Part shown: one piece after another, positions 3,523 to 26,239 of the stretch | Layout: each line of letters begins with the position of its first letter | Numbering within the stretch: the stretch's first letter is position 1 | Assembly: GCF_003254295.1 (NCBI RefSeq) | Contig: NZ_QKZO01000008.1 | Coordinates: 1 to 64,000 of the forward strand | Reading direction: 5' to 3' | DNA: 64,000 bases | Origin: Rhodobacter capsulatus | GTDB lineage: Bacteria > Pseudomonadota > Alphaproteobacteria > Rhodobacterales > Rhodobacteraceae | Program-made: the position numbers and the translations under genes | The notes under the pieces: generated by a model | Databases searched by the model: none | Seen by the model: only the letters and a program-made list of their open reading frames with translations | What the model was told of the DNA's origin: nothing

Positions 3523-3563
3523 AAGATAGCCCGGTTGCGCCAAGGCGTCTTAACGTGGGTCAG
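3523..3563 (-). promoter_or_regulatory. Crp/Fnr-like box and -10 for the PAS/LuxR gene
   Basis: On the minus strand CTGAC-CCAC-GTTAA (3563-3550) is followed, 22 bases after GTTA, by TATCTT (3528-3523). The box centre lies near -41.5 relative to the predicted start, as for class II activation. Read on the plus strand the same palindrome has no fitting -10. Confidence 0.6.
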
Positions 3564-3783
3564 CCCGGTGCTGAGTAGTTTCCGACCCTGCCCCCGCGGG
3601 CGGCGCCGCGCTACGCTTCCGACCGGGGTGCCTGTGTCCCTTCGCGCCCGCCCCGTCCGTCGCAAGATCGTGGCCGACACGGGCTGCGCCCCGGCGATCC
3701 CGTTGCCCAAGGCCGCAGGCCGAAGAGATGTTGTCAACCGTCCGCCTTGCCGGAATGGCGGCGGGCCAGCCAAGGAGCGTAAA

Positions 3784-4329
3784 ATGTCGGAACTCATCGT
3801 CATCGGTCACGACAGTGTCGAACAGGCCGAAGCCGCGCGCACCGCCCTGTTCGCCATGGTGCGTGAAGACCTGCTGGAGGTGACCGATGCGGTCGTCGCC
3901 ACGGTGGATGCCAAGGGCACGATCCGGCTGCATCATATGGTCGATTTCTGGACGCTTGGCGCCGGTGGCGGCGCGTTCTGGGGGCTTCTGGCGGGGCTTC
4001 TGGTCCTGCAGCCGATCGCGGGCATGCTGCTTGGCGCGACCGCGGGGGCGCTCTCGGGGGCGATGACGGATTTCGGCATCAGGGACGAATTCATGCGCGA
4101 GGTCACGGCGACGCTGGCGCCCGGCAAGGCGGCGCTCTTCGTGCTGCTGCGGGTTTCGGCCTCGGACATGGTGATCGCCCGGCTTGGCGAAAGCGGCGGC
4201 AAGATCCTGCGCACCGATCTCGACCCGGCCGCCGAAGACCGCCTGCGGGCGACCTTTGCCCTGGCCCATGCCGAAGCCGCCAAGGTCAAGACCGCAAACC
4301 CGGTCCCCACACCCGAGCCCGCGGTCTGA
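3784..4329 (+). CDS. DUF1269 family protein, copy 1
   Basis: A 181-residue protein beginning MSELIVIGHDSVEQAEAARTA, preceded by AAGGAGCG. The centre has a Gly/Ala-rich double membrane-inserting segment (GGGAFWGLLAGLLVL, then GMLLGATAGALSGAM) flanked by soluble alpha/beta parts, typical of DUF1269 proteins. Function is unknown; family members are often stress-associated. It is clearly paralogous to the protein at 21940-22467. It precedes the P-type ATPase, but that gene has its own predicted promoter. No shared box with a fitting -10 was found upstream of this gene on the plus strand. Confidence 0.85.
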   Translation: MSELIVIGHDSVEQAEAARTALFAMVREDLLEVTDAVVATVDAKGTIRLHHMVDFWTLGAGGGAFWGLLAGLLVLQPIAGMLLGATAGALSGAMTDFGIRDEFMREVTATLAPGKAALFVLLRVSASDMVIARLGESGGKILRTDLDPAAEDRLRATFALAHAEAAKVKTANPVPTPEPAV

Positions 4330-4372
4330 AAGACCCGCAAACGGCCCGCAGGCCGCCGAAGCTGCGGCGGGG

Positions 4373-4414
4373 CTGATGCAGGTCAATGTCGGCGCCTCCG
4401 GCGGATCGCAGACT
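4373..4414 (+). promoter_or_regulatory. Crp/Fnr-like box and -10 for the P-type ATPase
   Basis: CTGAT-GCAG-GTCAA (4373-4386) is followed by CAGACT (4409-4414), 23 bases after GTCA. This is one of the best palindromes of the set. The predicted transcript starts about 20 bases before the ATPase ATG. Confidence 0.65.
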
Positions 4415-4439
4415 GACGGACCGCTGAAAGGTCCCGCCC

Positions 4440-6962
4440 ATGCGCAAGCGTTCCTCTGACGACCTGTCCCGAAACCTGCGGCCCGAGGGTCCGCCTCTTG
4501 CGGCCGGGTTGACCGCGGCCGAGGCCGCCCGGCGGCTGCGCGCCGAAGGGCCGAATGCCCTGCCGCGCCCGAGACCGCGCGGGGCGGTGCGTCTGGTTCT
4601 GGATGTGCTGAAAGAGCCGATGCTGAGCCTGCTTCTGGCGGGCGGGGCGATCTATCTTCTGCTGGGGGATCGCGCCGAAGGGGCGATCCTGCTGGCCTTT
4701 GCCGGGCTTTCCGTCGGCCTGACCGTGGTGCAGGAGGCGCGGACGGAACGCGTGCTGGACGCGCTGCGCGATCTGACCAGCCCGCGGGCGCTGGTGATCC
4801 GCGACGGGCAGCGGCGGCGCATTGCCGGGCAGGATCTGGTCCGGGGCGATCTGATCGCGCTGAGCGAAGGCGACCGGGTGCCCGCCGATGCGCAGCTGCA
4901 ATCGGGGGCAGAGCTGACCCTCGACGAGTCGCTGCTGACCGGCGAGGCGGTGCCGGTGCGCAAAAGCGCCGCCCGCGCCACAGCGCGGGTGTTTTCGGGC
5001 ACGCTGGTCGTGGGCGGCAGCGCCGAGGCGCGGGTGATCGCCACCGGCGCGGCCAGCGAGATCGGCCGGATCGGCACCTCGCTGGCGCTTCTCGATCCCG
5101 AAACCCCGCATCTGCAACGGCAGATGCGCGGGCTGGTGCTCTGGTTCGCGCTGATCGGCGGGGCGGTCAGTCTGGGGGTGGTGGCGCTTTACGGCCTGAC
5201 CCGGGGCGGCGACTGGTTGCAGGCGCTGCTGGCCGGGATTGCCGTCGGCATGTCGATGCTGCCCGAGGAATTCCCGATGGTTCTGGCGGTCTTCATGGCG
5301 ATGGGGGCGTGGCGGATCTCCAAGGCGGGGGTTCTGACCCGCCGCGCCAGCGCCATCGAGACCCTGGGCGCGGCCAGCGTGCTGTGCACCGACAAGACCG
5401 GCACGCTGACGGAAAACCGGATGGCGATCGCCAGCCTGCAGCTGGCCGATGGCTGCGCATGGGAGGCCGGGGCCGCGCTTGCGCCCGCCTTTCAGGGGCT
5501 GGCGCAGGCGGGCACGCGGGCCTCGGCGCCTGCGCCCTTCGACCCGATGGAGGCGGCCTTTCACCGCCTTTCGCCGCCGGGTGCGGGCAAGCTGATCCGC
5601 TCCTATCCGCTCGGGCCGGAGCTTCTGGCGATGACGCAGGTCTGGCGGCAGGGCGATGCGGTCACCGCCTATGCCAAGGGCGCCCCCGAGGCGATCGCGA
5701 CGCTTTGCGGTCTCGCCCCCGAGACCCTGCGCGCGCGGGTGGACCGGCTTGCCGCGACCGGGCAGCGGGTGCTGGCGGTGGCGCAGGCCGAGACCGAGGC
5801 GGCCGATCTGCCCGACCGGCAAAGCGGCTTTGCGTTTCGATTTCTGGGGCTGGTCGGGCTGATCGACCCGCTGCGCGCCAGCGTGCCGCAGGCGATGGCC
5901 ACCTGCAAGACGGCCGGGATCCGGGTGATCATGATCACCGGCGACCATCCCGCCACCGCCGAGGCGATCGCCCGACTTGCGGGGCTGGGCGATCACCGGG
6001 CGCTCACCGGTGACGATCTGGACGGGATGACCGATCCGGCGCTGCAAAAGGTGCTGGCGGGCGCCGCCGTCTTTGCCCGCATCCGGCCCGAGCAGAAGCT
6101 GCGCATCGTGCAGGCGCTGAAAGCCTGCGGCGGGATCGTGGCGATGACCGGCGACGGGGTGAACGATGCGCCCTCGCTCAAGGCGGCGCATATCGGCGTG
6201 GCGATGGGCGGGCGCGGCACCGATGTCGCGCGCGAGGCCGCCGCGATCGTGCTCTTGACCGACGATTTCGGCGCGATCGTCCGCACCATCGCCTTGGGGC
6301 GGCGGATTTACGACAATCTGCGCAAGGCGATGAGCTTCATTCTGGCGGTGCATGTGCCGATTGCCGGTCTGGCGCTTCTGCCGCTGATCCTTGGCACGCC
6401 GCTGCTGTTCGGGCCGCTGCATATCGCGCTTTTGGAAATGATCATCGACCCGGTCTGCGCGCTGGTCTTCGAGGCCGAGGAAGAGGAGGCGGGCCTGATG
6501 GCGCGTCCGCCCCGCCCGGTGGCCGAGCCGCTGTTTTCCGGCCCGACGATCCTGTGGAGCCTGACGCAGGGCGTCGTGGCCTTTGCCGCGGTGGCCGCGA
6601 TCCATCTGGCCGCGCCGCAGTTCGGCATGGCCGAGGCGCAGACCCGGGCGCTGAGCTTTGCCGCCCTGGTGATGACGATCCTGGCGCTGATCCTGGTGAA
6701 CCGGGTGCGCTCGGCCTCGGTCCTGACCGCCCTGTCCAGACGCAACCGGGCGCTTGGCGTGATCCTGGCGGCGGTGACAACGGTTCTGGCGCTGGTCTTG
6801 GGCGTGGCGCAGATCCGCGCCCTGTTCGGCTTCGAGCTGCCGCCGCCCGTGGCGCTGGCGGTGCCTTTGGCGGCGGGGGCGGCGGTGCTGGTGCTGCTCG
6901 AGGCGCTCAAGGCGCTGTGGGCGCGGTTCGGCCCGGCAAGACCCGCCCCGGCGGCAGGCTGA
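4440..6962 (+). CDS. Cation-transporting P-type ATPase (P2-like)
   Basis: An 840-residue P-type ATPase. Visible motifs are the actuator LTGEAVPV near residue 167, the phosphorylation motif DKTGTLT near 318, the hinge TGDGVNDAPS near 570 and about ten hydrophobic segments. The ion-binding helix reads MLPEEFPM near 275, where Ca2+/Mg2+ pumps usually have PEGLP. No N-terminal CxxC metal-binding domain is present, so it is not a copper or zinc P1B pump. The substrate cannot be fixed from sequence; divalent cation export or uptake is likely. It is a single gene with its own stress-type promoter and ends before a strong hairpin shared with the convergent PRC-barrel gene. Confidence 0.88.
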   Translation: MRKRSSDDLSRNLRPEGPPLAAGLTAAEAARRLRAEGPNALPRPRPRGAVRLVLDVLKEPMLSLLLAGGAIYLLLGDRAEGAILLAFAGLSVGLTVVQEARTERVLDALRDLTSPRALVIRDGQRRRIAGQDLVRGDLIALSEGDRVPADAQLQSGAELTLDESLLTGEAVPVRKSAARATARVFSGTLVVGGSAEARVIATGAASEIGRIGTSLALLDPETPHLQRQMRGLVLWFALIGGAVSLGVVALYGLTRGGDWLQALLAGIAVGMSMLPEEFPMVLAVFMAMGAWRISKAGVLTRRASAIETLGAASVLCTDKTGTLTENRMAIASLQLADGCAWEAGAALAPAFQGLAQAGTRASAPAPFDPMEAAFHRLSPPGAGKLIRSYPLGPELLAMTQVWRQGDAVTAYAKGAPEAIATLCGLAPETLRARVDRLAATGQRVLAVAQAETEAADLPDRQSGFAFRFLGLVGLIDPLRASVPQAMATCKTAGIRVIMITGDHPATAEAIARLAGLGDHRALTGDDLDGMTDPALQKVLAGAAVFARIRPEQKLRIVQALKACGGIVAMTGDGVNDAPSLKAAHIGVAMGGRGTDVAREAAAIVLLTDDFGAIVRTIALGRRIYDNLRKAMSFILAVHVPIAGLALLPLILGTPLLFGPLHIALLEMIIDPVCALVFEAEEEEAGLMARPPRPVAEPLFSGPTILWSLTQGVVAFAAVAAIHLAAPQFGMAEAQTRALSFAALVMTILALILVNRVRSASVLTALSRRNRALGVILAAVTTVLALVLGVAQIRALFGFELPPPVALAVPLAAGAAVLVLLEALKALWARFGPARPAPAAG

Positions 6963-7015
6963 CCCAGCGGCGGCCGCCCGTTCCCGCATGACGCATGACG
7001 CTTGGCGCGCATGGG

Positions 7016-7041
7016 AAAGGCCCCCCTTTCGGGGGGCCTTT
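7016..7041. terminator. Bidirectional terminator hairpin
   Basis: A perfect 11-bp stem, AAAGGCCCCCC / GGGGGGCCTTT, closes on a TTTC loop between the convergent ATPase and PRC-barrel genes. The A and T runs at the stem ends make it usable from both directions. Confidence 0.85.
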
Positions 7042-7050
7042 CGTCTTGTC

Positions 7051-7602: not shown

Positions 7603-7998
7603 TCAGACCGGTTCCTTTTTCGGCGCGATCGCCGCCGCCGCCCGGGTGCGCAGATCCGAGATCGTCTCCTTGGTGGCCTGCGCCGCGTGCTGGGCGCCCT
7701 CGCGCAGCGATGCCCCGGCCGCGTTGATCCCCTCGCGGACCTCGCTCACCTTGTCTTCGGCCTGCAGGGCGGCGACGCCCATCCGATCCTTGGCCCGGTC
7801 GATCTCGGCCCGGACTTCCTGGGTCCGGGTCTCGACGACGGTCTGCATCCGCGTGACGAAGCCTTCGGCCTCGACCTGGGCTTCGGCCAGCTCCGCCTTG
7901 GCGGAACCTTGCATCTTTTCAATGTAGTCGCTGATCTGGTCGTGAAGGTCCTGCACCTCGGCGCGGATCTGCTCCAGACGGGTCGCGGGATCGCTCAT
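7603..7998 (-). CDS. Small coiled-coil protein (MSDPAT family), full-length copy
   Basis: A 131-residue, highly charged helical protein with long heptad-like stretches and no Cys or transmembrane helix. The ATG at 7998 follows AAAGGTG; a GTG three codons earlier lacks spacing. It resembles apolipoprotein/phasin-like stress proteins in composition only; function is unknown. The N-terminus MSDPAT and the stretch VEAEGFVTRMQTVVETR recur in the shorter protein at 19518-19754 (AETEAFIQRMRAIVENR), so the two are paralogues. Both have CTAACATGGGT-type promoter boxes. Confidence 0.75.
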   Translation of the reverse strand: MSDPATRLEQIRAEVQDLHDQISDYIEKMQGSAKAELAEAQVEAEGFVTRMQTVVETRTQEVRAEIDRAKDRMGVAALQAEDKVSEVREGINAAGASLREGAQHAAQATKETISDLRTRAAAAIAPKKEPV

Positions 7999-8191: not shown

Positions 8192-8232
8192 ACCCTAGCG
8201 AAAACCCGGGGCGCGGCCATTACCCATGTTAG
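8192..8232 (-). promoter_or_regulatory. Crp/Fnr-like box and -10 for the coiled-coil gene
   Basis: On the minus strand CTAAC-ATGG-GTAAT (8232-8219) is followed 22 bases after GTAA by TAGGGT (8197-8192). The first eleven bases and GCTAGGGTTG match the promoter at 19293 exactly and at the same distance. The leader to the ATG at 7998 is about 185 bases. Confidence 0.7.
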
Positions 8233-8911: not shown

Positions 8912-8921
8912 GAGCAAACCC

Positions 8922-9903: not shown

Positions 9904-9945
9904 CAAACCTGCATCAGGATGCGACTCGGGGGGATGGGGCAGGGT
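9904..9945 (+). promoter_or_regulatory. Crp/Fnr-like box and -10 for the 63-residue protein, copy A
   Basis: CAAAC-CTGC-ATCAG (9904-9917) is followed by CAGGGT (9940-9945), 23 bases after ATCA. The box is weaker than the best sites but is conserved identically in copy B, while the -10 drifts (CAGGGT versus AAGGAT). Confidence 0.5.
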
Positions 9946-10085: not shown

Positions 10086-10277
10086 ATGAACGCCAACACC
10101 ACCTCGAACAGCGCCGAACGCATCAAGACCGTCAAGGCCGCCTGGGACAAGGCGCCCGACGGCCCGAAGAAAGAGGCCGCGCTGAAGCATTATCAGGCCG
10201 CCGAAAAGGCCCAGACCGCCAAGGATGACGCGGGCGTCACCAAGTCGCTCGACGCCGCCGTGGCCGCGCTGGCCTGA
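10086..10277 (+). CDS. 63-residue helical protein, copy A
   Basis: A 63-residue, Lys/Ala-rich, all-helical protein (VKAAWDKAPDGPKKEAAL, then HYQAAEKAQTAKDD). It differs at only about nine positions from the protein at 18792-18983, and a more distant relative is at 25194-25427. No signal peptide or Cys is present. Function is unknown; size, charge and promoter suggest an abundant stress-induced cytoplasmic protein. AAAGGACC provides the ribosome-binding site and the mRNA should carry a leader of about 135 bases with a 5'-terminal hairpin. Confidence 0.8.
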   Translation: MNANTTSNSAERIKTVKAAWDKAPDGPKKEAALKHYQAAEKAQTAKDDAGVTKSLDAAVAALA

Positions 10278-11771: not shown

Positions 11772-11813
11772 CTGATGCACGGCAGCATCGGCGGGGGCGA
11801 TTCGGGGCAGGCT
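11772..11813 (+). promoter_or_regulatory. Candidate Crp/Fnr-like box and -10 for the outer-membrane protein
   Basis: CTGAT-GCAC-GGCAG (11772-11785) has one good half-site; CAGGCT (11808-11813) follows 23 bases after GGCA, the standard distance. It is among the weaker members of the set. Confidence 0.4.
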
Positions 11814-11862: not shown

Positions 11863-12696
11863 ATGACCCGAATTCTTCTTCTGGCAGGCACGACGATTGC
11901 CGCGCTGGCGCTTGGCGTGCCTGCGGCCCTTGCGCAAACGGCGCTGGTTGGCATCGATTCGGTTGACGACCGCATCGACGACATCGACCGCGCCGCGCAG
12001 ATCGACCTCGATCGCGGCAACGATGCCTTTCGCTACGGCAGCCCGGACTATCGCGAGGGCATGTCGGGCAGCGCCTCGCTGAGTTACGCGGGCAAGACCG
12101 GCGCCACGGATTCAAGCGAATTCAGCCTGGGCGCGCGGCTGCGTTTTGCCAATGGCCCGTTCGTGCAGAACCTCGGCATGGTGCTGGACTTTGCCGAATT
12201 CGACTCGGACAAGACCAAGGAAGACACCTTCTTCATCTATGACGCGAATTACTACTTCAACGACTCGTTTTACGGCTTCGTGCTTGGCCGGGTGAAGACC
12301 GACGGGCTTGCCGACACCGCCGAAGACGTCAAGACCGACGCCTTCCTCGGGGTCGGCCCCGGCTACCGCATTGTCAACACCCGCGATCTGAGCTGGCGGG
12401 TGCAGGCGGGCATCGGGGTCAGCTATCTGCAGGACGGTCTTGAGGACTCCGTGACCGAAACCGGCTACATCGCCTCGTCGCGGCTGTTCTGGCGGCTGAA
12501 CGACAAGCTTTTCGCCACGAATGACACCGATATCCTGGAATCGGACACCGCGACGCGGGTGAACAACGATCTGGGGCTGAACGTGAAGATGACCGACATG
12601 TTCGCCACCCGCATCAGCTACCTGACGGAGTACAACGACTCGCGCGCCGTCAAGACCGAGAACAAGCTGGGGGTCTCGCTCGTCTATTCCTTCTGA
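11863..12696 (+). CDS. DUF481-like outer-membrane beta-barrel protein
   Basis: A 277-residue protein with a signal peptide (MTRILLLAGTTIAALALGV, cleavage near ALA-Q), a short Asp-rich helix, then alternating beta strands with aromatic girdles (SLSYAGKTGATDSSEFSLGA and similar) and a C-terminal Phe (VSLVYSF). This fits a DUF481-type outer-membrane barrel of about 12 strands. Such proteins have no fixed function and some respond to salt stress. The gene is monocistronic, with a perfect hairpin 17 bases after its stop. Confidence 0.78.
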   Translation: MTRILLLAGTTIAALALGVPAALAQTALVGIDSVDDRIDDIDRAAQIDLDRGNDAFRYGSPDYREGMSGSASLSYAGKTGATDSSEFSLGARLRFANGPFVQNLGMVLDFAEFDSDKTKEDTFFIYDANYYFNDSFYGFVLGRVKTDGLADTAEDVKTDAFLGVGPGYRIVNTRDLSWRVQAGIGVSYLQDGLEDSVTETGYIASSRLFWRLNDKLFATNDTDILESDTATRVNNDLGLNVKMTDMFATRISYLTEYNDSRAVKTENKLGVSLVYSF

Positions 12697-12800: not shown

Positions 12801-12842
12801 CTAACCTGCGTCAATGCCGACCGGACGGGATGGCCTCATAGT
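12801..12842 (+). promoter_or_regulatory. Crp/Fnr-like box and -10 for csbD
   Basis: CTAAC-CTGC-GTCAA (12801-12814), a strong box, with CATAGT (12837-12842) 23 bases after GTCA. Confidence 0.6.
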
Positions 12843-12908: not shown

Positions 12909-13082
12909 ATGGACAAGGATCGGGTTGTCGGTTCCGCAAAGGTCGTCAAGGGCAAGGCCAAGGTGGCGATCGGAAAGGCCATCGGCGACAAGAAGCTTGA
13001 GACGGAAGGCGAGGCCGAAAAGGTCGCGGGCAAGATCCAGAACGCTGTGGGCGGCATCAAGGACACGATCCGCGACGCGTAG
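12909..13082 (+). CDS. CsbD family stress protein
   Basis: A 57-residue protein (MDKDRVVGSAKVVKGKAK, ending GGIKDTIRDA) with the repeated Gly/Lys helix pattern of CsbD proteins, which accumulate in general stress responses of many bacteria. GAAAGGAAAACATC gives the ribosome-binding site. It has its own Crp/Fnr-like promoter. The biochemical role of CsbD is not known. Confidence 0.88.
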   Translation: MDKDRVVGSAKVVKGKAKVAIGKAIGDKKLETEGEAEKVAGKIQNAVGGIKDTIRDA

Positions 13083-15693: not shown

Positions 15694-15734
15694 CTGATCC
15701 AGGTCAGCCCGGCTTCGACCGGGGGCGCTAGACT
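15694..15734 (+). promoter_or_regulatory. Crp/Fnr-like box and -10 for the ABC exporter operon
   Basis: CTGAT-CCAG-GTCAG (15694-15707) and TAGACT (15729-15734), 22 bases after GTCA. The predicted transcript starts about 20 bases before the first ATG. Confidence 0.7.
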
Positions 15735-15762: not shown

Positions 15763-16839
15763 ATGCCCGACCCCGCCCCCCGACATCCCGACCGGCCCCG
15801 ATGGCGCCGTTCCGGCGCTTTGGCGCTGGCGGCGCTGGTCTGTGTCGGGGCCTTGCTGGGGTGGCGGCTCGGCCCCGCGCGCCCGCCGGTGGTGGCGGTG
15901 GAGATCATGGCGGCGGGGCCGGTGACGCGGGTTCTGGCGGTGAACGGCAAGATCGCCCCGCGCGAGCGGCTGGCGATCCGCGCCGCGGTCGGCGAGGTCG
16001 TGCTGAGCGTCGCGGTCGCGGCGGGCGATGTGGTGACGGCGGGTGCGGTACTGGCGCGGCTCGATGACCGCCAGCAGGCGGCGGCGCTGCGGCAGGCCGA
16101 GGCGGCGCTGGCGCAGGCGGTGATCTTGCAGGCGCAGGCGGCGGCCGAGTTCGGGCGCGACCGCGATCTGGGGGCGCAGGTGTCGCGGATGAGGCTTGAC
16201 GACGCCCGCCGCAGCCTTGCGGGCGCGGCGCAGGAGGTGGCGGGCCGCGCCGCCCTGCGCGATCAGGCCCGGATCGCGCTTGACCATTACGCGCTGCGCG
16301 CGCCGGTCGCGGGCACGGTGCTGACGCGGGCGGTCGATCCGGGCCAGCGCGTCGACATCGCGACGACGCTTTTCACCCTGGCCGATCTGGCGCGGCTGCG
16401 CGTCGAGACCGACGTGGATGAAACCTATGCGTTGCAGATCGCGCCGGGGCAGCGGGTGCGGCTGCTTCTGCTGGGCAGCGCCGAGACCCGGATGGGCACG
16501 GTCGAGGTGGTCGCGCCGCGGGTGGACCCGGACACCGGCGGGCTGGCGGTGAAGATCGGTTTCGATGCGCCGGTCCGCGCCCCGGTCGGGCTGACCGTCA
16601 CCGCGAATGTGGTGATCGACAGCCGCAGCGCATTGACGGTGCCGCGCACGGCCTTGACCGGCGAAGGGGGGGCGGTCTTCGTGCTGCGCGCGGGGCGCGC
16701 GGTCGCAACTCCGGTCCGCGTGATCGACTGGCCCGCCGACCGGCTGATCGTCACCGCGGGGCTGGCGCCCGGGGACCGGGTGATCAGCGACAGCACCGGC
16801 CTGCACGACGGGCAAATCCTGCGCGAGGAGGGCGAGTGA
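15763..16839 (+). CDS. Periplasmic adaptor of an ABC exporter (HlyD/DevB-like)
   Basis: A 358-residue membrane-fusion protein with an N-terminal membrane anchor (ALALAALVCVGALLGW), a biotinyl-lipoyl-like half motif, a coiled-coil hairpin at about 100-165 (ADDRQQAAALRQAE-type repeats), the second lipoyl half and a beta-barrel domain. Such adaptors link an inner-membrane ABC exporter to the cell exterior. It is the first gene of a three-gene operon in the order adaptor-permease-ATPase, the same order as DevBCA exporters. The ATG at 15763 is close behind a predicted Crp/Fnr-dependent promoter. The substrate is unknown. Confidence 0.85.
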   Translation: MPDPAPRHPDRPRWRRSGALALAALVCVGALLGWRLGPARPPVVAVEIMAAGPVTRVLAVNGKIAPRERLAIRAAVGEVVLSVAVAAGDVVTAGAVLARLDDRQQAAALRQAEAALAQAVILQAQAAAEFGRDRDLGAQVSRMRLDDARRSLAGAAQEVAGRAALRDQARIALDHYALRAPVAGTVLTRAVDPGQRVDIATTLFTLADLARLRVETDVDETYALQIAPGQRVRLLLLGSAETRMGTVEVVAPRVDPDTGGLAVKIGFDAPVRAPVGLTVTANVVIDSRSALTVPRTALTGEGGAVFVLRAGRAVATPVRVIDWPADRLIVTAGLAPGDRVISDSTGLHDGQILREEGE

Positions 16840-18041
16840 TGTTGTATGCTATCAAGATCGCGGCGCGGTATCTGAGCGCCTCGAAGGCGCAGACGGCGCT
16901 TCTGGTGGTGGGGGTGGCGGCGGGCGTCTTCGTCTTCATCTTCATGTCGGCGCTGATCGGGGGGCTGGCCGAATTCATCCTGGCGCGCACGGCGGGCGAC
17001 ATGGCGCATGTGACGATCGAGGCCGAGGCCCGCCTCCCGGCCCGGCTGGCGGTGCCGCCGGGCCGCGTGCTTTGGGCGGACCAGGCGACGCGCGAAACCG
17101 CCACGCTGCGCGCGGCGGAAAACTTCCTGCCGCTGATCGAGACCCTGCCCGGGGTCAAGGCGGTCTCGCCGCAGATCATCGGCTCGGGCGTCTTGCGCCG
17201 CGGCGGACAGGCGGCGCAGGTCTCGATCGTCGGGCTGGAGCCGGGGCGGGAAAGTGCGATTCTGGATCTGGCGCGCTATCGGGTGGCGGGATCGGTGCGG
17301 CTGGGCGCGGGCGTGGTGGTGCTGGGCAAGGGGCTGGTCGAGGATCTGGGCCTCGCGCTCAATCAAAGCGTGGTGCTGCAATCGAGCCATGGCGTCACCA
17401 TGCGGCTGACGCTGGGCGGGATCTACGAGATCGGCGCGGGCGGGGCGGACCGGCGCATGGCCTATGTCAGCCTGGCCACGGCCCGCAGCCTGATGGCGCT
17501 GCCGCAGGGGCTGAGCCGGATCGAGATCAAGCTGTTCGACCTTTATGCCGCCGATGCCAGCGCCGCGCGCCTGCGCGGCCTGACCGGCCTGCCCGCGGTG
17601 TCCTGGACGCGCGAGGGGGCGCGGCTGCTTGAAGCGCTGAGGGCGCAAAAGCAGACCGGCTATTTCCTGAAAAGCTTCGCGATGATCACCATCGTCATCG
17701 GCGTCGCCTCCTCGCTCATGCTCTCCACCTATCGCCGCCGCCCCGAGATCGGGATCATGCGGGCGATGGGGGCGTCGCGGCGCTTCGTCGTCGGCGTCTT
17801 CGTGCTGCAGGGCGGGCTGATCGGCGCGATGGGCGGGCTTTTGGGTGCGGCCACCGGCTATGGCGCGCTTCTGCTGTTTCCCACGCGCGAGAATTTCCGC
17901 TCCGGCACCTTGCCGATGGACATCACCCAGGGCGCCTATGGGCTGGCGATCACGCTGACGGTGCTCTGCGCCATCGCCGCCGCGATCCTGCCCGCGCGGG
18001 CGGCGGCGCGGCTCGATCCGGTCACGGCGATTGGCCAATGA
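16839..18041 (+). CDS. ABC exporter permease (FtsX/MacB-like)
   Basis: A 400-residue permease with one N-terminal helix (QTALLVVGVAAGVFVFIFM), a large periplasmic domain (residues about 45-265) and three C-terminal helices with the FtsX-type motif RRRPEIGIMRAMGAS. The ATG overlaps the adaptor stop (TGATG); a GTG one codon earlier is possible. This four-helix topology belongs to MacB/LolC/DevC-type systems, which move lipids, peptides or lipoproteins by mechanical coupling rather than by a classical pore. Confidence 0.87.
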   Translation: MLYAIKIAARYLSASKAQTALLVVGVAAGVFVFIFMSALIGGLAEFILARTAGDMAHVTIEAEARLPARLAVPPGRVLWADQATRETATLRAAENFLPLIETLPGVKAVSPQIIGSGVLRRGGQAAQVSIVGLEPGRESAILDLARYRVAGSVRLGAGVVVLGKGLVEDLGLALNQSVVLQSSHGVTMRLTLGGIYEIGAGGADRRMAYVSLATARSLMALPQGLSRIEIKLFDLYAADASAARLRGLTGLPAVSWTREGARLLEALRAQKQTGYFLKSFAMITIVIGVASSLMLSTYRRRPEIGIMRAMGASRRFVVGVFVLQGGLIGAMGGLLGAATGYGALLLFPTRENFRSGTLPMDITQGAYGLAITLTVLCAIAAAILPARAAARLDPVTAIGQ

Positions 18042-18712
18042 GCCTTGTCACCGTCACCGATCTGGTCAAGACCTTCGGCACCGGAGAGGCCGAAACCCGG
18101 GTGTTGCGCGGCGCCAACCTGACGCTGGAGCGCGGCGCGCGGGCGGCGCTGATCGGCCCCTCGGGCTCGGGCAAAAGCACGCTGCTGACGATCCTGGGCA
18201 CGCTGATGCGGCCGACCTCGGGCGGGCACGAGATGCTGGGCGTCGATCTGACCCGGGCCAGCGATGCCGAATTGACCGCGTTTCGCAACCGCCACATCGG
18301 CTTCGTGTTTCAGTTCCACAATCTGCTGCCCGATTTCACCGCGCTGGAAAACGTGGTCTTTCCGGCCGCGATCCGGGCCGGGCGCGAAACCGCCGCGGCG
18401 CGGGCGCGGGGGGCGGATCTGCTGGACAGGATGGGGCTTGCGGCGCGGATCCAGTTTCCCGCCGCCAATCTCTCGGGCGGGCAGAAGCAGCGCGTGGCGG
18501 TGGCGCGGGCCTTGATGAACGCGCCCGAACTGGTGCTGGCGGACGAGCCCACCGGCAATCTCGACCGCGCCGCGGCGGCGCAGGTGATGGCGCTGATCGG
18601 CCAGATCAACCGCGACGAGGGCACGGCCTTCCTGATCTCGACCCATGACGAGACGATCGCCGCCAGCTGTCCGCGCCGGATCGTGGTGGGCGAGGGCAGG
18701 TTGACCGGCTGA
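18038..18712 (+). CDS. ABC exporter ATP-binding protein (LolD/MacB/DevA-like)
   Basis: A 224-residue ATPase with Walker A GPSGSGKST, Q-loop FQFHNLLPDF, signature LSGGQKQR, Walker B LVLADEPTG and the H-loop STHDE. Short length and the LLPDFTALENV region put it with LolD/MacB/DevA ATPases. Its ATG overlaps the permease stop (ATGA). It converges on the 63-residue gene copy B, and a hairpin separates the two. Confidence 0.9.
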   Translation: MSLVTVTDLVKTFGTGEAETRVLRGANLTLERGARAALIGPSGSGKSTLLTILGTLMRPTSGGHEMLGVDLTRASDAELTAFRNRHIGFVFQFHNLLPDFTALENVVFPAAIRAGRETAAARARGADLLDRMGLAARIQFPAANLSGGQKQRVAVARALMNAPELVLADEPTGNLDRAAAAQVMALIGQINRDEGTAFLISTHDETIAASCPRRIVVGEGRLTG

Positions 18713-18791: not shown

Positions 18792-18983
18792 TCAGGCCAG
18801 CGCGGCCACGGCGGCGTCCAGCGCCTTGCCGACGGCGGCATCATCCTTGGCGGTCTGCGCCTTTTCGGCGGCCTGATAATGCGTCAGCGCGGCCTCTTTC
18901 TTCGGGCCGTCGGGCGCCTTGTCCCAGGCGGCCTTGACGGTTTTCATGCGTTCGGCATTCGACGCCATGGTATTGAGATTCAT
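18792..18983 (-). CDS. 63-residue helical protein, copy B
   Basis: A 63-residue protein (MNLNTMASNAERMKTVKAAW), nearly identical to copy A at 10086-10277, including the central KAPDGPKKEAAL and QAAEKAQTAKDD blocks. AAGGATGAAACC gives the ribosome-binding site. The two genes lie in opposite orientation about 8.7 kb apart and share about 200 bases of leader, so they arose by inverted duplication. Function is unknown. Confidence 0.8.
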   Translation of the reverse strand: MNLNTMASNAERMKTVKAAWDKAPDGPKKEAALTHYQAAEKAQTAKDDAAVGKALDAAVAALA

Positions 18984-19122: not shown

Positions 19123-19164
19123 ATCCTTGCCGATCGGTCCGAGTCGCATCCTGATGCAGGTTTG
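19123..19164 (-). promoter_or_regulatory. Crp/Fnr-like box and -10 for copy B
   Basis: Minus strand CAAAC-CTGC-ATCAG (19164-19151), with AAGGAT (19128-19123) 23 bases after ATCA. The box is identical to that of copy A; the -10 is weak. Confidence 0.5.
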
Positions 19165-19292: not shown

Positions 19293-19333
19293 CTAACATG
19301 GGTCAAGGCCGCGGATCGTCCCTTTGCTAGGGT
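19293..19333 (+). promoter_or_regulatory. Crp/Fnr-like box and -10 for the sigma-factor operon
   Basis: CTAAC-ATGG-GTCAA (19293-19306) and TAGGGT (19328-19333), 22 bases after GTCA. This is the clearest site in the window and matches the promoter at 8232-8192 in box, spacing and -10. Confidence 0.75.
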
Positions 19334-19517: not shown

Positions 19518-19754
19518 ATGAGCGATCCCGCGACCCTGCCGAACAAGAACCGATCCGACCGGCACCGCCTTGCGGCCCAGAGCGGCGCCGATGCGGACCG
19601 GGCCGAGGCCGCGGTTGCGGCGGCGCTGACCGTCGAGCAGGCCGAGACCGAAGCCTTCATCCAACGGATGCGCGCGATCGTCGAGAACCGCTGCCACGGC
19701 ACCGAGGCAGGCCGGACGGAACATCGCCGGTCGGACAGGCCGTGCGATGACTGA
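19518..19754 (+). CDS. Short MSDPAT-family protein preceding the ECF sigma factor
   Basis: A 78-residue protein that starts MSDPAT and contains AETEAFIQRMRAIVENR, both shared with the 131-residue coiled-coil protein at 7603-7998. The middle is shortened and the tail differs, so it is a truncated paralogue. The ribosome-binding site is weak. Its last eight bases overlap the sigma-factor gene, so translation may be coupled. It could act on the sigma factor, but nothing in the sequence shows a known anti-sigma domain. Confidence 0.55.
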   Translation: MSDPATLPNKNRSDRHRLAAQSGADADRAEAAVAAALTVEQAETEAFIQRMRAIVENRCHGTEAGRTEHRRSDRPCDD

Positions 19755-20322
19755 CGAAAGCCCCTCCCGAGTCGCGCCCCGGGCCGCGCCCCGGATCGGC
19801 GAGCACATCGTCGCGCTGCGCCGCTTCGCGCTGTCCCTGACCCGCGATTCCGACAGGGCCGATGATCTCGTGCAGGATACGATGCTGCGCGCGGTCCTGC
19901 ATTTCGACCGCTTCCAGCCCGGAACCAACCTGCGCGCCTGGCTTTTCACGATCGAGCGCAACATCCATTATTCCAATCGGCACAGGGCCCTGCGCGAGAC
20001 GGCCGTGATGCGTCAGCTGAGCGCAACAGGCGCGGTGGCGCTGCCCGCGCATGACGGGGTGCTGGCGCTGGAAGAAGTTCTGGACGCCTTTCGGCAGCTT
20101 TCGGCGCCGCACCGGCGCGTGCTTTTGCTGGTCGGCGCCTTGGGCTATACGCATCGCGAAACCGCCGAGACCATCCGCATGTCCCCCGAGGCGGTGCGCG
20201 CCCGCATCACCCGCGCCCGCGGGCTTCTGCGCAAGCGGCTGGGCCTTGCCGGAAGCGAGACCCCGATGCCGCATCCGGATTTCCATGCTCTTGCGGTGCG
20301 CCCCGAGCGGGCCCCGTGCTGA
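19747..20322 (+). CDS. ECF-type RNA polymerase sigma factor
   Basis: A 191-residue group IV sigma factor with region 2 (FALSLTRDSDRADDLVQDTM, then FDRFQPGTNLRAWLFTIERN) and region 4 (LSAPHRRVLLLVGALGYTHR, then ETIRMSPEAVRARITRARG). There is no region 3 or C-terminal sensory extension. A recognisable anti-sigma gene is absent next to it. It resembles the EcfG/RpoE-like sigma factors of alphaproteobacteria, but no PhyR or NepR gene is in the window. Its operon has the strongest Crp/Fnr-like promoter, which would place this sigma factor downstream of that regulator. Confidence 0.88.
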   Translation: MTDESPSRVAPRAAPRIGEHIVALRRFALSLTRDSDRADDLVQDTMLRAVLHFDRFQPGTNLRAWLFTIERNIHYSNRHRALRETAVMRQLSATGAVALPAHDGVLALEEVLDAFRQLSAPHRRVLLLVGALGYTHRETAETIRMSPEAVRARITRARGLLRKRLGLAGSETPMPHPDFHALAVRPERAPC

Positions 20323-21514: not shown

Positions 21515-21943
21515 TCATTGATGCGTCAGCTGATGGTCGATCTTTTCGTGCAATTGCCGGATTTCAAGTTCGGCCTTCGGGTTCACCCGGTCGTCGTTCC
21601 TGCCGCGCAGCCGGTCCCTGGTTTCCTGTCGCCGCTGGCGCATCATGATGACCTGCGCCTGCAGCGCCGCAGGACAAGAGCAGATAGAGCAGGATGAACG
21701 GATAGGGCTCGAAAGGCGGGCGGTGCAGCAGCGCGCTGACGTTCAGGCCTATCCAAAGCACGAGCAGCCCCGGAAAGATAGAGATGAACGGCCAGCTGCC
21801 GCCGAAACGTGCCGCCGAAACGTGCCCCCGAAACGCGCCACCGCATCGGCCATCCGCTCGCCAAGGGTCAGCCGGGGGCCTTGGCCGCGATCAGCGCCCG
21901 GCACCGGGCAGGCGATCTTCCGGCGCAGGCTGCGTTTTGTCAC
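21515..21943 (-). pseudogene. DUF1003 membrane protein gene, frameshifted
   Basis: Three frames together give a full DUF1003 protein: MADAVARFGG in the first, WPFISIFPGLLVLWIGLN to FEPYPFILLYLLLSC in the second, and AALQAQVIMMRQRRQ to LEIRQLHEKIDHQL in the third. The first break coincides with three tandem 13-bp units (21799-21837) where one would be expected. The second break is a one-base insertion or two-base loss near 21670. In-frame stops lie between, so no full product can be made. The GTG start overlaps the stop of the DUF1269 gene (GTGA). DUF1003 proteins have two membrane helices and unknown function. Confidence 0.8.
21799..21837 (-). repeat. Three tandem 13-bp units inside the DUF1003 gene
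   Basis: CCGCCGAAACGTG occurs twice, followed by CCCCCGAAACGCG. Loss of two units (26 bases) would restore the junction RFGG-SWPF. Confidence 0.85.
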
Positions 21944-22467
21944 GCACGGTCAGCGTCTTGCAGGGATTTGCCAAGCCCGTCGCGCGCTGTCGCGAAAGCC
22001 TCGCGCAGGGCGACCTCGGCCGCGGGGTCAAGGTTGGTGCGCAGGATGTCGCCCCCCTTCGCGCCGAGCCGCGTCACCATCCGCTCTGACGCCGGGGCCT
22101 TCAGCAGCAGAAACAGCGCCGCATGTCCCGGTTTCAGCATCGCCGACACCTTGCGCATGAAGGCATCATCGATCCCGTAATCGCTCAGCGCCCCCGAGAC
22201 GGCCCCGGCCGCGGCGCCGATGAACAGCCCGATCAGCGGATTGAAGAACAGGATGCCCGCCAAAAGCCCCCAGAACGCCCCGCCGGTCGCCCCCACCGCC
22301 CAGAGATCGACCATCTGCGCCAGCCGGATGCCGCCCGCGTCATCCACGGTGGCGACCACGGCATCGGTCACGTCGGCAAGGTATTCCCTGGCCATGCCAA
22401 GGACTTCGGCGCGGGCGGCCTCGGCCGCCGCGGGAGTTTCATAGCCGATGACGATGAGTTCGGGCAT
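21940..22467 (-). CDS. DUF1269 family protein, copy 2
   Basis: A 175-residue protein (MPELIVIGYETPAAAEAARA), paralogous over its whole length to the protein at 3784-4329. The shared Gly-rich membrane-inserting segment reads GGAFWGLLAGILFFNPLIGL. AAAGGAGAGGGTC precedes the ATG. It is the first gene of an operon with the DUF1003 remnant and the transglutaminase-like gene. The 200-base leader contains a perfect 11-bp hairpin and a Crp/Fnr-like promoter. Function unknown. Confidence 0.85.
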   Translation of the reverse strand: MPELIVIGYETPAAAEAARAEVLGMAREYLADVTDAVVATVDDAGGIRLAQMVDLWAVGATGGAFWGLLAGILFFNPLIGLFIGAAAGAVSGALSDYGIDDAFMRKVSAMLKPGHAALFLLLKAPASERMVTRLGAKGGDILRTNLDPAAEVALREAFATARDGLGKSLQDADRA

Positions 22468-22598: not shown

Positions 22599-22641
22599 GT
22601 TCTGGCGCCCTTCCCGGACGGACCCCGGTTCTGGCCGGGTG

Positions 22642-22683
22642 ACTCTGGCATGGCCGGTGGCAAGGCATACTGATCCATGTTGG
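22642..22683 (-). promoter_or_regulatory. Crp/Fnr-like box and -10 for the DUF1269 copy 2 operon
   Basis: Minus strand CCAAC-ATGG-ATCAG (22683-22670), with CAGAGT (22647-22642) 23 bases after ATCA. Confidence 0.6.
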
Positions 22684-22734
22684 TCCGCGGGGCCGCAATC
22701 GGGCGGCGTGCCCCGCGGCACGGGGCGCGGCGCG

Positions 22735-22776
22735 CTAACCCCGATCAGCTTCCCCTGCCCGGGGCTGGGCTATCGT
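22735..22776 (+). promoter_or_regulatory. Crp/Fnr-like box and -10 for the operon at 22900
   Basis: CTAAC-CCCG-ATCAG (22735-22748), with TATCGT (22771-22776) 23 bases after ATCA. It is divergent from the site at 22683-22642, with 52 bases between the boxes. Confidence 0.6.
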
Positions 22777-22899
22777 GTGGCGGTGCATGGGATCGCAGGA
22801 GACGAACGCGCCCCGCAGCCCTTGAGGGGCGCCTGCTGCCCGCTTCCCGCCTGCGCGCCCGTGCCGATGCCGGAAGTCCCGGACGTGAAAGGAAATCTC

Positions 22900-23648: not shown

Positions 23649-23775
23649 ACACGCCGAAGCGGGCCCCGGTCACGAGATCCCGCTTCGCCGTCCAACCCGT
23701 GATGCCGCCGTCCATCGTCCATCGTCCTGCGCCTTGCCAGGGTCGCCTTTGTCGCGTGAGCGGGATTTCACCGGG

Positions 23776-24594
23776 TCAAGCCCCCCGGCTTCCCGGGCCG
23801 GCGCGTGAAGAACCTGCCGTCTCGGCGCGGGATCGGACATCATCGGGGTGTTCCTTGCAACGGGTGGGGGGCGGCCGCATCCGGGGTGCCGCATGGCCCG
23901 GCGCCAGGACGCAGTCACCCGACAGCTGCCAGTCGACGAGCGTCGCGACCCAAAGACCGATACTGCGATCGGCGTGCCTGTGACGGACATCGGTGTGAAA
24001 CGGGATCCAGCGGCCGCGGATGCGGTCGTACTCCGCATAGCTGCCGAACCAGCCCGCGGCAGCGTCCCGGCGTTGCGGAAAACTCCGGGGATCGGGCAGG
24101 AAGACGCTTGCCACGCGGCCATCGGCGTCCAGCGTGAAGGTCGCCTCGACCGTCTCGACGCCAAGCCCCGTGGCGACGCGCAGATGGCTCTCGTCGATCT
24201 CTTCCCAGCGCAGGGCGCGGTTGTGCAGCATCGCATCGGGCGCAAGCGGCAATTCGGTCAGATAGCGCAGCCTCTGGCTGCGGGGCAGCGCCTGCGGGCG
24301 GGGGGCGAAGGGAAGGGGCAGGCGACCGAAGGCGCGGACGGAGAATTGACCCGGTTGGCCGGTATCAAGACTGTCGTGCATCACGACGGCATGGGCGGGG
24401 CCAAGCCGCGCCCGCCAGGAATAGGCGCAGGCGGTGACGGACAGGGTTTCCTCGGCGGTGAAGGCAAGCCAGGCATCGTTCGGCAGCCCCAGGTTGATGC
24501 GGCCGCAGTGGCGCAGATGCACCGGCCCGCCCGTCCGGTCCGGGTCCGCCCCAAGGCGCAGCGCAAGGGCGGTGACGGCGGCAAGACCGGTCAT
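23776..24594 (-). CDS. DUF6544/DUF6920-like protein
   Basis: A 272-residue protein with a hydrophobic start and a series of beta segments (RINLGLPNDAWLAFTAEETL, then YLTELPLAPDAML, RWEEIDESHLRV, IRGRWIPFHTDV). This order resembles DUF6544/DUF6920 proteins, lipid-binding-like beta folds of unknown role. The last 40 residues are Arg/Pro-rich and look like read-through into non-coding sequence, so the true C-terminus may have been altered. The ATG overlaps the stop of the cupin gene (ATGA). Confidence 0.6.
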   Translation of the reverse strand: MTGLAAVTALALRLGADPDRTGGPVHLRHCGRINLGLPNDAWLAFTAEETLSVTACAYSWRARLGPAHAVVMHDSLDTGQPGQFSVRAFGRLPLPFAPRPQALPRSQRLRYLTELPLAPDAMLHNRALRWEEIDESHLRVATGLGVETVEATFTLDADGRVASVFLPDPRSFPQRRDAAAGWFGSYAEYDRIRGRWIPFHTDVRHRHADRSIGLWVATLVDWQLSGDCVLAPGHAAPRMRPPPTRCKEHPDDVRSRAETAGSSRAGPGSRGA

Positions 24595-25004
24595 GGCGTG
24601 GAAAGATCCGCAGGCCCGCCTTCCGAGATCATGTCCTGCCGGGCCCGTTCCGTGCCGGCGCGGCCGCCGTCGGGCGTCGCCCGGGCTGCGCCGCCATGCG
24701 CCTGCAAGGCATGGAAACGCAAGCGCTTGCGGCCGATGTTGTGCAGCGCGAAGCCCATGCCCGCCGGGATCAGGATCGCGTCCTTTGCCCTGACGCGAAA
24801 GCTGGTGGCGCCGATCGTCATCCGCCCCTTGCCGGTGACGATGCGCAGGAACTGATCGCGCGCAGAGCCGTCGCCGACGCCAAGGCTGTCCTTGCGGCGC
24901 AGCGAAAACAGCATCAGATCCATCTGCGTCGCGCCGAACAGGACGCGGCGGAAGGCGTCGTTGTCCTTTGTGAGGCGGTCAATCGGTCCGACAAATCCGT
25001 GCAT
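24591..25004 (-). CDS. Cupin-like small protein
   Basis: A 137-residue protein. The central part (FLRIVTGKGRMTIGATSFRV, then DAILIPAGMGFALHNIG) has the beta pattern and Gly/Pro turn of a single cupin domain, but the usual metal-binding His cluster is mostly missing. GGGAGAAGGCC precedes the ATG. It is the first gene of a two-gene operon with the DUF6544/DUF6920-like gene, driven by a Crp/Fnr-like promoter. Function is unknown. Confidence 0.62.
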   Translation of the reverse strand: MHGFVGPIDRLTKDNDAFRRVLFGATQMDLMLFSLRRKDSLGVGDGSARDQFLRIVTGKGRMTIGATSFRVRAKDAILIPAGMGFALHNIGRKRLRFHALQAHGGAARATPDGGRAGTERARQDMISEGGPADLSTP

Positions 25005-25027
25005 GGCCTTCTCCCTGTTGCCTCTCC

Positions 25028-25069
25028 AGACTACCAGCGCGCCCCCGATGCCGGGCTGATCGAGATCAG
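25028..25069 (-). promoter_or_regulatory. Crp/Fnr-like box and -10 for the cupin operon
   Basis: CTGAT-CGAG-ATCAG (25056-25069) is a perfect palindrome apart from the centre and the closest to a textbook FNR box. On the minus strand TAGTCT (25033-25028) follows 23 bases after ATCA. Confidence 0.7.
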
Positions 25070-25106
25070 CGCCCGCATGCGACGGCGGCGGCATCGACGC
25101 GCAAGG

Positions 25107-25148
25107 CCGATCTCGATCAGTCTGACGCTTGGCCCGACGGGCTAGGCT
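25107..25148 (+). promoter_or_regulatory. Crp/Fnr-like box and -10 for the gene at 25194
   Basis: CCGAT-CTCG-ATCAG (25107-25120), with TAGGCT (25143-25148) 23 bases after ATCA. The box is 37 bases from the divergent one at 25056-25069. Confidence 0.65.
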
Positions 25149-25193
25149 GACGGGAATCGGCAGGCTCCCGCCTTGTCCGGGAAAGGACATCCC

Positions 25194-25427
25194 ATGGCGT
25201 CCAGACCGAGATTTGCCAGCACCGTCGAAAAGATGCGCGCGATCCGCGCGACCTGCGCGGCCGCCCCGGCGGGCCTGGCGAAGACCACGGCCGAGCGGCA
25301 TATCCAGGCCGCCGAAGCGGCGCAGCGCCGGGGCTGGGAGGGCGAGTGCAACCGGCGGCTCGATTCCGCCGCCCATGCGCTTGCACGGGCGGCTCAATGC
25401 AGCAGCGGCCCCTCGTGGTCGAGATAG
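25194..25427 (+). CDS. Distant relative of the 63-residue helical proteins
   Basis: A 77-residue, Ala/Arg-rich helical protein. The stretch VEKMRAIRATCAAAPAGLAK followed by RHIQAAEAAQRRG aligns by eye with AERMKTVKAAWDKAPDGPKK and HYQAAEKAQTAKD of the two 63-residue proteins. GAAAGGACATCCC precedes the ATG. The last ten codons overlap the 3' end of the convergent Crp/Fnr gene. Function is unknown. Confidence 0.65.
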   Translation: MASRPRFASTVEKMRAIRATCAAAPAGLAKTTAERHIQAAEAAQRRGWEGECNRRLDSAAHALARAAQCSSGPSWSR

Positions 25428-26125
25428 CCGGTGTCGAAACGCGCCAGCGCCCGCAGCCGGTCGAAATCGTCAAACAGCACGCGGCCCTTCTGAAAGGTGA
25501 TCAGCCCCTGTTCGCGCAGATGCCGCAGCACGCGGTTGACATGCACCGCGCTCAGCCCCAGCGCATCGGCCAGATGATATTGCGTCAGCGGGCAATCGAA
25601 ACCGGAGCGGTCGCCCACCCCCACCAGCATCAGCCGTGCCCCGAGTTCAAGAAGGAAATGCGCCGTGCGCTCCTCGGCGTTGCGTCGCCCCAGATCAATC
25701 AGATGCTCGACCACCATCGCCTCGTCGCGCGAGGCGGCCCAAAGCACCGCGGCCGCCAGCCGCGGCGCTTCGGCAAAAGCGTCCAGAATGTCGGTGGCGA
25801 GGACCTCGGAGGCCTCGATCTGCGTCACCGCCTCGATCGAATGGTCGGAGGTGCGGAAAAGGATGCTGCGCAGGCCCAGAAAATCGCCCGGCACCTGAAA
25901 ATCGACAACCTGCCGGTCGCCGTCGGGCAGCATCTTGAACGAACAGGCCCAGCCCTTGGCCAGAATGAAGGCCGAGGCGTTCATCTGCCCTTCGTGGATC
26001 ATCTCATGGCCGCATTGAAAGACCCGTCGCCGTCGATGGAACCGTTCGAGCGTGGCAAGATCGCGATCGGAAAGCGCGACGAAGACCGAAAGCTTGCGGG
26101 TGAGCGGGCTTTGAAGGATCGACAT
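25394..26125 (-). CDS. Crp/Fnr family transcriptional regulator
   Basis: A 243-residue regulator with an N-terminal cyclic-nucleotide-binding-like beta barrel (FQCGHEMIHEGQMNASAFIL, then PDGDRQVVDFQVPGDFLGL), a long dimerisation helix and a C-terminal helix-turn-helix (LTQYHLADALGLSAVHVNRV). The N-terminal Cys cluster that holds the iron-sulfur centre of Fnr is absent, and the Arg/Ser pair that binds cAMP in Crp is not evident, so the signal is unknown. The recognition helix has SAVHVNRV instead of the Crp SRETVGRI. The ATG at 26125 follows AAGGACCCCGAG. Its own promoter shares a palindromic box with the divergent gene at 26297. It is the best candidate to bind the repeated boxes in the region. 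Confidence 0.88.
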   Translation of the reverse strand: MSILQSPLTRKLSVFVALSDRDLATLERFHRRRRVFQCGHEMIHEGQMNASAFILAKGWACSFKMLPDGDRQVVDFQVPGDFLGLRSILFRTSDHSIEAVTQIEASEVLATDILDAFAEAPRLAAAVLWAASRDEAMVVEHLIDLGRRNAEERTAHFLLELGARLMLVGVGDRSGFDCPLTQYHLADALGLSAVHVNRVLRHLREQGLITFQKGRVLFDDFDRLRALARFDTGYLDHEGPLLH

Positions 26126-26170
26126 CTCGGGGTCCTTCCTGACGGATCGGCAGCGGTGCATCTGTCGGGA

Positions 26171-26239
26171 CTCATATCAGGAATAGAGCTTTGCCGCGCT
26201 GCTCTGGATCAGTCTTGCGACGCGAAATGAGCCTAGAGT
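26171..26239. promoter_or_regulatory. Shared Crp/Fnr-like box between divergent promoters (regulator gene and 26297)
   Basis: CTGCT-CTGG-ATCAG (26199-26212) has TAGAGT (26234-26239) 22 bases downstream on the plus strand. On the minus strand TATGAG (26176-26171) lies 23 bases after the other half-site. One palindrome could therefore serve both promoters, including that of the regulator itself. Confidence 0.6.

Follow-up and report, generated by a model that had tools for sequence, protein, structure and literature searches.

A putative Crp/Fnr regulon that encodes its regulator and has a distinct promoter box, clustered in Rhodobacter capsulatus and recurring in other Alphaproteobacteria

The described systems closest to the one reported here are those of FNR/FnrL and FixK. 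The FNR consensus is given in PMC5398030 as TTGAT-N4-ATCAA and the FixK/FnrN consensus in PMC4999443 as TTGANCNNGATCAANG; each begins with T. The recognition helix of an FNR-type structure is LGLTVETISRLL, and that of FixK2, the best sequence match of our regulator among solved structures (4i2o, E = 2.5e-16), is LGLTLETVSRAL. The regulator in question is encoded on a 64,000-nucleotide stretch of Rhodobacter capsulatus (positions 1 to 64,000 of contig NZ_QKZO01000008.1, assembly GCF_003254295.1; hereafter the window), within a cluster of palindromic boxes that are followed at a near-constant distance by -10-like hexamers. Judged from the sequence, and with a probability which we put at roughly 85%, these represent a class II Crp/Fnr regulon with its own regulator, autoregulated, locally clustered, accessory and sometimes plasmid-borne. 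With FNR/FnrL it has in common the Crp/Fnr domains, a 14-bp dyad with a 4-bp spacer and the class II position, whereas its box begins with C and ends with G. DnrB and DnrC of Dinoroseobacter shibae are likewise Crp/Fnr proteins without a known role amid hypothetical genes, a likeness drawn from the description in PMC5398030.

The regulator matches PF13545 (4e-17) and PF00027 (1.6e-11), both above cut-off, which places it in the Crp/Fnr superfamily, and it is 94% identical to a protein of Rhodobacter capsulatus SP108 (locus L001). Scores against the curated subfamily models are 67.3 versus a cut-off of 300 bits (NF045989) and 65.3 versus 228 (NF008365) for FnrL/FNR, 61.8 versus 300 bits for FixK, and 27.9 versus 266 for CRP (NF008732). 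The ETVSR-type helix of FixK is replaced by VHVNR; the helix LGLSAVHVNRVL is unlike both LGLTVETISR (FNR-type structure) and LGLTLETVSR (FixK2 structure), and relatives more than 60% identical keep [VI]H[VI]NR. An N-terminal cysteine cluster of the FNR type is absent from all 20 aligned relatives, whose only invariant cysteine is C190, with C73 almost as constant. With its [VI]H[VI]NR helix and C-first box, the regulator is best read as neither FNR nor FixK.

Box and spacing across loci and in the window

The geometry was examined in 80 loci, the best of 492 candidates with relatives of the regulator. Perfect boxes number 259 on both strands of these loci, as against 37-46 in five Markov-2 simulations. 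A TANNNT hexamer follows a perfect box at 22 bp in 64 cases and at 21 bp in eight, while every other gap from 10 to 35 bp is seen zero to five times; gap 22 makes up 64 of the 100 box/TANNNT pairs in that range. The 80 loci contain 72 composites, with at least one perfect composite in 44 loci, and each of the five simulations contains none; a comparison of this kind, with shuffled sequence, had been proposed in the preliminary description of the window. Freeing the box positions singly mostly returned the same letters, with position 2 also read as C (13/78) and position 12 also as A or T (13/75).

The preliminary description spoke of fifteen promoters in its title and listed fourteen palindromes, all of which are found at their coordinates (Table 1). 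Read with direction, the 14-bp box is CTRAY-N4-RTCAR, 21-22 bp 5′ of a TANNNT- or CANNNT-like -10, the exception being 19151 (AAGGAT). The fixed distance to a TAGRNT-like -10 claimed earlier stands, with its value corrected to 21 or 22 bp from the end of the box. A gap of 22 puts the centre of the box at -41.5, as had been proposed, and a dyad near -41.5 at a fixed distance from the -10 is the arrangement of a class II promoter, here with predicted start sites.

A consensus rule (box with at most one mismatch, gap of 21 or 22, YANNNT), which is post hoc in being read from the window, matched 13 times in positions 1-26,300, once in 26,301-64,000 and nine times in a sample of the same genome (400 kb of 3,666 kb, in 20 stretches at places that we chose). 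The 13 matches compare with 0.6 expected (Poisson p = 1e-13). Twelve of them are sites listed in the preliminary description; 8219 (two mismatches) and 19151 (by its hexamer) fail the rule. The remaining match, 25147 (-), agrees with R. capsulatus at 9/14 positions, is not conserved and was set aside as probably due to chance.

Since that consensus derives from the window, a weight matrix was built from 62 sites, all from other genomes (L002-L080). At a score of at least 17 this independent matrix gave 12 oriented hits at 10 places in the first 26.3 kb of the window, none in the other 37.7 kb and three in the 400-kb sample; at a score of at least 20 it gave eight oriented hits at seven places, none and none. 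The earlier claims of Crp/Fnr-like boxes, of class II geometry and of local clustering hold up on scoring and comparative data. Ten of the fourteen sites are clear (9904, 12801, 15694, 19151, 19293, 22670, 22735, 25056, 25107 and 26199), each outscoring everything in the sample. Site 8219 is borderline, as the sample has four places that score as well, and 4373, 11772 and 3550 lack support from the score because 15, 37 and 52 such places exist. Sites 9904 and 19151 look like mutual copies, as probably do 8219 and 19293, which leaves about 12 independent sites. For each site an ORF start can be selected 17-187 bp past the predicted transcription start, which is weak evidence because GC-rich DNA offers several candidates per site. 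The absence of further sites elsewhere in this genome was judged from the 400-kb sample and from a site model so insensitive that at E<=0.5 it recovered no more than four or five of the 14 sites in the window.

Summed over ten sites, identity to R. capsulatus amounts to 137/140 positions in the boxes, 54/60 in the -10 hexamers and 170/218 in the spacers (Fisher p = 1.5e-8, boxes versus spacers). The sums omit 3550 and 4373, for which the aligned R. capsulatus stretch holds no counterpart, and also 8219 and 19293, because both align to one and the same place there. Flanks are also well conserved at some sites, most of all at 11772, where the box is conserved, yet so is its entire surrounding.

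Table 1. Regulator, partner and box/-10 sites in window coordinates (score, independent matrix; identity, box positions matching R. capsulatus)
Feature	Position	Strand	-10 hexamer	Gene behind the site, or remark	Score	Identity
Crp/Fnr-family regulator	25394-26125	-		start MSILQSPL chosen by us; ORF to 26161; recognition helix LGLSAVHVNRVLRHLR		
77-aa divergent partner protein	26297-26530	+		three helices predicted; no Pfam/NCBIfam match		
Box CTGCTCTGGATCAG	26199-26212	+	TAGAGT 26234-26239 (+)	partner	26.1	14/14
Box CTGCTCTGGATCAG, regulator side	26199-26212	-	TATGAG 26171-26176 (-10-like)	perhaps common to the regulator		
Box CCGATCTCGATCAG	25107-25120	+	TAGGCT 25143-25148	small protein 25194-25427	25.2	14/14
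Box CTGATCTCGATCAG	25056-25069	-	TAGTCT 25028-25033	cupin-like gene 24591-25004 (Cupin_2 match slightly below cut-off)	29.7	13/14
Box CTAACCCCGATCAG	22735-22748	+	TATCGT 22771-22776	ORF ending 23253 (start uncertain)	30.8	13/14
Box CCAACATGGATCAG	22670-22683	-	CAGAGT 22642-22647	DUF1269 gene 21940-22467 (PF06897)	21.3	14/14
Box CTAACATGGGTCAA	19293-19306	+	TAGGGT 19328-19333	19518-19754 and ECF sigma gene 19747-20322	22.4	11/14
Box CAAACCTGCATCAG	19151-19164	-	AAGGAT 19123-19128 (poor)	18792-18983 (KAAWDKAP protein)	18.5	14/14
Box CTGATCCAGGTCAG	15694-15707	+	TAGACT 15729-15734	HlyD-FtsX/MacB-ABC exporter genes 15763-18712 (Pfam)	23.1	14/14
Box CTAACCTGCGTCAA	12801-12814	+	CATAGT 12837-12842	CsbD-like gene 12909-13082 (PF05532)	19.8	14/14
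Box CAAACCTGCATCAG	9904-9917	+	CAGGGT 9940-9945	10086-10277 (KAAWDKAP protein)	18.9	14/14
Borderline box CTAACATGGGTAAT	8219-8232	-	TAGGGT 8192-8197	7603-7998 (helical protein)	16.8	13/14
Weak box CTGATGCAGGTCAA	4373-4386	+	CAGACT 4409-4414	P-type ATPase 4440-6962	12.5	
Weak box CTGATGCACGGCAG, uncertain	11772-11785	+	CAGGCT 11808-11813	DUF481 gene 11863-12696	11.2	
Weak box CTGACCCACGTTAA, uncertain	3550-3563	-	TATCTT 3523-3528	PAS-LuxR gene 2763-3476	10.3	

A P-type ATPase gene in locus L124, 65% identical to that behind 4373, is also preceded by a composite (CTGACCGAGATCAG, gap 22, CACCAT). The products of 10086-10277 (+), 18792-18983 (-) and 25194-25427 (+) are look-alike small proteins of the KAAWDKAP type, the third so judged by visual comparison. 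A box precedes each of the three genes, and similar upstream stretches are shared by 10086-10277 and 18792-18983.

The partner gene and the distribution of sites

A tblastn match to the partner is present in 80 of 86 loci. After removal of loci in which no partner was detected or the layout differed, 79 usable divergent regulator-partner pairs remained, including the window (L081) and a duplicate (L082). The intergenic box CTGMT-N4-ATCAG, a consensus picked after the rows had been seen, is perfect in 63 of these pairs, has at most one mismatch in 75 and is worse in four; shuffled intergenic sequences gave no perfect box and 23/1580 within one mismatch. Towards the partner, 64 rows have their best gap at 21 bp, 12 at 22 and three at 23, and a poor -10 is common among the more distant rows. 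Towards the regulator, the commonest reading is TAT at 22 bp from the box (columns -25 to -23), which suggests autoregulation. The left half of the intergenic box is mostly CTGCT, not CTGAT (C in 64/77 at that position), an asymmetry that may favour one direction. For the partner a structure of three helices is predicted (mean pLDDT 83), and a search for this fold among solved structures gave no match at E<=0.001. Out of seven more distant regulator loci, L139 (71%) has an intergenic box with a partner and the other six do not clearly do so; in the loci of about 28-34% homologs (L088-L096) no box was found at the threshold used.

Within the genus the regulator (E<=1e-40) occurs in four of 18 genomes. 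G003 carries a piece of it at a contig edge and, because the contig end cuts it, this piece is not evidence of a decayed gene. Ten hits to the site model at E<=0.02 were obtained in the genus: eight on the regulator contigs of this genome (G000) and of G014, one on the G003 contig and one in the incomplete G001. Only strong, near full-length hits to this model discriminate. Among 120 family genomes, sampled twice alike and taken as one set, some of which may have fed the site model, 27 carry the regulator (E<=1e-70). Good sites (E<=0.01) are present in nine of these 27 versus one of the 93 without it (Fisher p = 4e-6; 2e-5 minus this genome), and 10 of 12 hits lie no more than 6 kb from the regulator. 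In 12 of 16 regulator genomes hits occur at E<=0.03, and 26 of the 32 hits are inside known 20-kb loci by their coordinates; as these loci fed the site model, the informative part is the scarcity of hits elsewhere. One of the six outside hits (G044 C30) adjoins a second regulator-partner pair (L122). A strong box/-10 composite at L121:6704 (+), on G041 contig 34, stands on a 12-kb stretch without a regulator in a regulator-bearing genome and is a possible distant target. Gap statistics, the conserved intergenic box and the phyletic link tie the box to the gene at 25394-26125 and point to its product as the very probable reader of the boxes; the preliminary description had named this protein for binding experiments.

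Weighing the explanations

The geometry, its recurrence around the regulator clade and the conserved intergenic box are directly visible in the sequence. In a class II regulon, a dimer of the regulator would bind RCTRAY-N4-RTCAGY centred near -41.5 and, standing in for a -35 element, would touch RNA polymerase as a class II activator; this contact would switch on the downstream genes. The single 26199 box would probably serve both the regulator and its 77-aa partner, giving autoregulation, and regulator and sites would have been transferred as a unit.

Chance, or a compositional artefact of GC-rich DNA, might be argued from the three of 14 sites that are no better than background and the one that is borderline; with ten sites unequalled in 400 kb of the same genome, and with the gap and phylogenetic tests contradicting it, this explanation has a negligible likelihood. 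That the boxes are ordinary FnrL/FixK sites, and the genes part of the oxygen regulon, is very improbable. The dyad does have the layout, with 4-bp spacer, of TTGAT-N4-ATCAA (PMC5398030), and FnrL is the closest NCBIfam model. However, when position 1 of the gap-22 sites is freed it reads C 62 times, A once and T never (n = 63), and G occupies position 14 in 59 of 62 sites; because its first base is C and its last is G, the box is not of the FNR/FixK type. In 1.25 Mb of loci TTGAY-N4-RTCAA occurs six times (oriented) and never with a -10 at 21/22, whereas the corresponding figures for CTRAY-N4-RTCAG are 232 and 67. The sites also track an accessory regulator. FnrL/FixK sites were ruled out by the box letters and the missing cysteine cluster.

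Slightly less credible still is a different reader from the cluster, either the PAS-LuxR protein or the ECF sigma factor, with the Crp/Fnr gene as a passenger. The genes of both candidates lie within the cluster, but their matches are confined to three and four of 86 loci, compared with 80 for the partner (the loci were selected for the Crp/Fnr gene, so all have it), and the conserved box sits between the Crp/Fnr gene and the partner; an ECF sigma factor, on textbook knowledge, leaves a dyad at -41.5 unexplained. A regulator that binds the boxes but mainly represses, or that switches in both directions at 26199, is the least improbable of these alternatives, at a small likelihood. Two features would suit a switch: the orientation of the shared box towards both genes, and the prevalence of TAT at 22 bp on the regulator side. 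A fixed 22-bp distance, though, is not needed for repression.

Several observations weigh against a class II regulon under this regulator. The loci are related by descent, and their counts are not independent; moreover, L001 and G014 contig 163 are one record, so that G014 is no extra witness, L082 repeats L001, and L081 is the window itself. Perfect composites are missing from 36 of the 80 loci. Besides the post hoc choice of the intergenic consensus, other intergenic columns are conserved as well, among them A-rich ones that lie 14-17 bp upstream of the box; a scored site precedes only 10 of 75 regulator ORFs; and relatives 52-64% identical are mostly without a clear box-plus-partner layout. 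At the lax E<=0.5, 17 of 18 genus genomes have hits, mostly to the box part only, and G010, which lacks the regulator, has 11, equal to this genome. The hits of G023 and G133 are not near a regulator, no hit was obtained in 18 of the 27 regulator genomes under stricter filters, and none at E<=0.03 in four of the 16. Locus L125 has regulator and partner and no composite by the rule used; the plasmid locus L138, with differing neighbours, has no site at a score of at least 20.

Targets, spread and meaning

Most of the window targets, largely uncharacterised, are small proteins of membrane, envelope or stress type; an exporter is also among them. In loci L002-L080, where ORFs were chosen by a simple composition rule, some sites had trained the matrix and family names are partly by sequence similarity, a site (score at least 17) stands in front of 205 of 1633 predicted ORFs. 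Site-fronted are the partner (32/45), the KAAWDKAP family (24/31), a 140-aa family (17/23), the OmpA/glycine-zipper lipoprotein (15/24), Thivi_2564 proteins (10/12) and AI-2E-type transporters (8/12); rarely so are CsbD-like proteins (2/38), transglutaminases (1/20), DUF3309-like (1/19) and DUF883-like (0/13) proteins and ABC ATPases (0/21). Many window targets have few relatives in other loci, e.g., the ATPase (4/86) and the DUF481 protein (1/86), and the target set therefore varies by locus. PMC5359404 lists a RegA peak for one CsbD gene of R. capsulatus, which may or may not be the CsbD-like gene of this cluster.

At the left of the cluster (window 360-2689) stand a gene for a serine recombinase and a fragment with similarity to DUF3734; at the right edge similarity to R. 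capsulatus ends past the partner gene (26530), and the next ORF is without a match there. The recombinase on one side and the stop in similarity on the other suggest that the cluster is an inserted island.

The boxes are not peculiar to this genome: similar sites surround orthologs of the regulator, both in other Alphaproteobacteria and on plasmids. Class-wide the regulator (E<=1e-70) is found in eight of 289 genomes, from eight families, and it lies on 19 plasmid records, six conjugative, five mobilizable and eight non-mobilizable. Six of these 19 plasmid loci, outside the matrix training, hold nine sites scoring at least 20 in 154 kb; five loci have at least one, and seven of the nine sites are 44-128 bp 5′ of an annotated start. 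Neighbours of the regulator on the plasmids of L133-L137, typed conjugative or mobilizable, include in some cases GroEL, GroES, HflK/HflC, NhaA, fatty acid desaturases and transglutaminases. By analogy, plasmid loci with chaperone, HflK/HflC and antiporter genes resemble the transmissible stress-tolerance loci of enterobacteria; those described here are alphaproteobacterial, with a regulator and a box of their own.

The EcfG/NepR/PhyR general stress response may also be likened to this regulon, partly from general knowledge, in its kinds of targets (CsbD-like and small envelope proteins), although its regulator is of a different class. This genome encodes NepR at another place (C15), and 14 of 18 genus genomes have it; it was not found in G003, G006, G007 and G014 of these, two of which (G006 and G014) have the regulator and one (G003) the cut piece. 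A replacement of the NepR-type response was dropped as an explanation on account of the 14 genomes, and the presence of NepR there and in this genome marks the regulon as an addition, not a replacement.

A description of the box or of the regulon was not found in the open literature, in a search that mostly did not extend to subscription papers and was in part of limited sensitivity; the earlier wording "possibly undescribed" draws only weak evidence from this. A wider proposal, which we hold tentatively and consider rather less probable than its contrary, is that of a Crp/Fnr subfamily with its own DNA code (VHVNR reading CTRAY/RTCAG) and a compact, horizontally mobile stress regulon, in which a dedicated 77-aa partner would set activity, with regulator, partner and ready-made promoters moving between Alphaproteobacteria as one working unit. 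The class II regulon itself would supply a Crp/Fnr group that seems uncharacterised, and that is present in 27 of 120 sampled family genomes, with a binding site and candidate targets, and would indicate that many small unknown proteins have a role in common. It would also represent a natural shift of DNA specificity within the Crp/Fnr fold, and may exemplify a regulator that spreads along with its target promoters.

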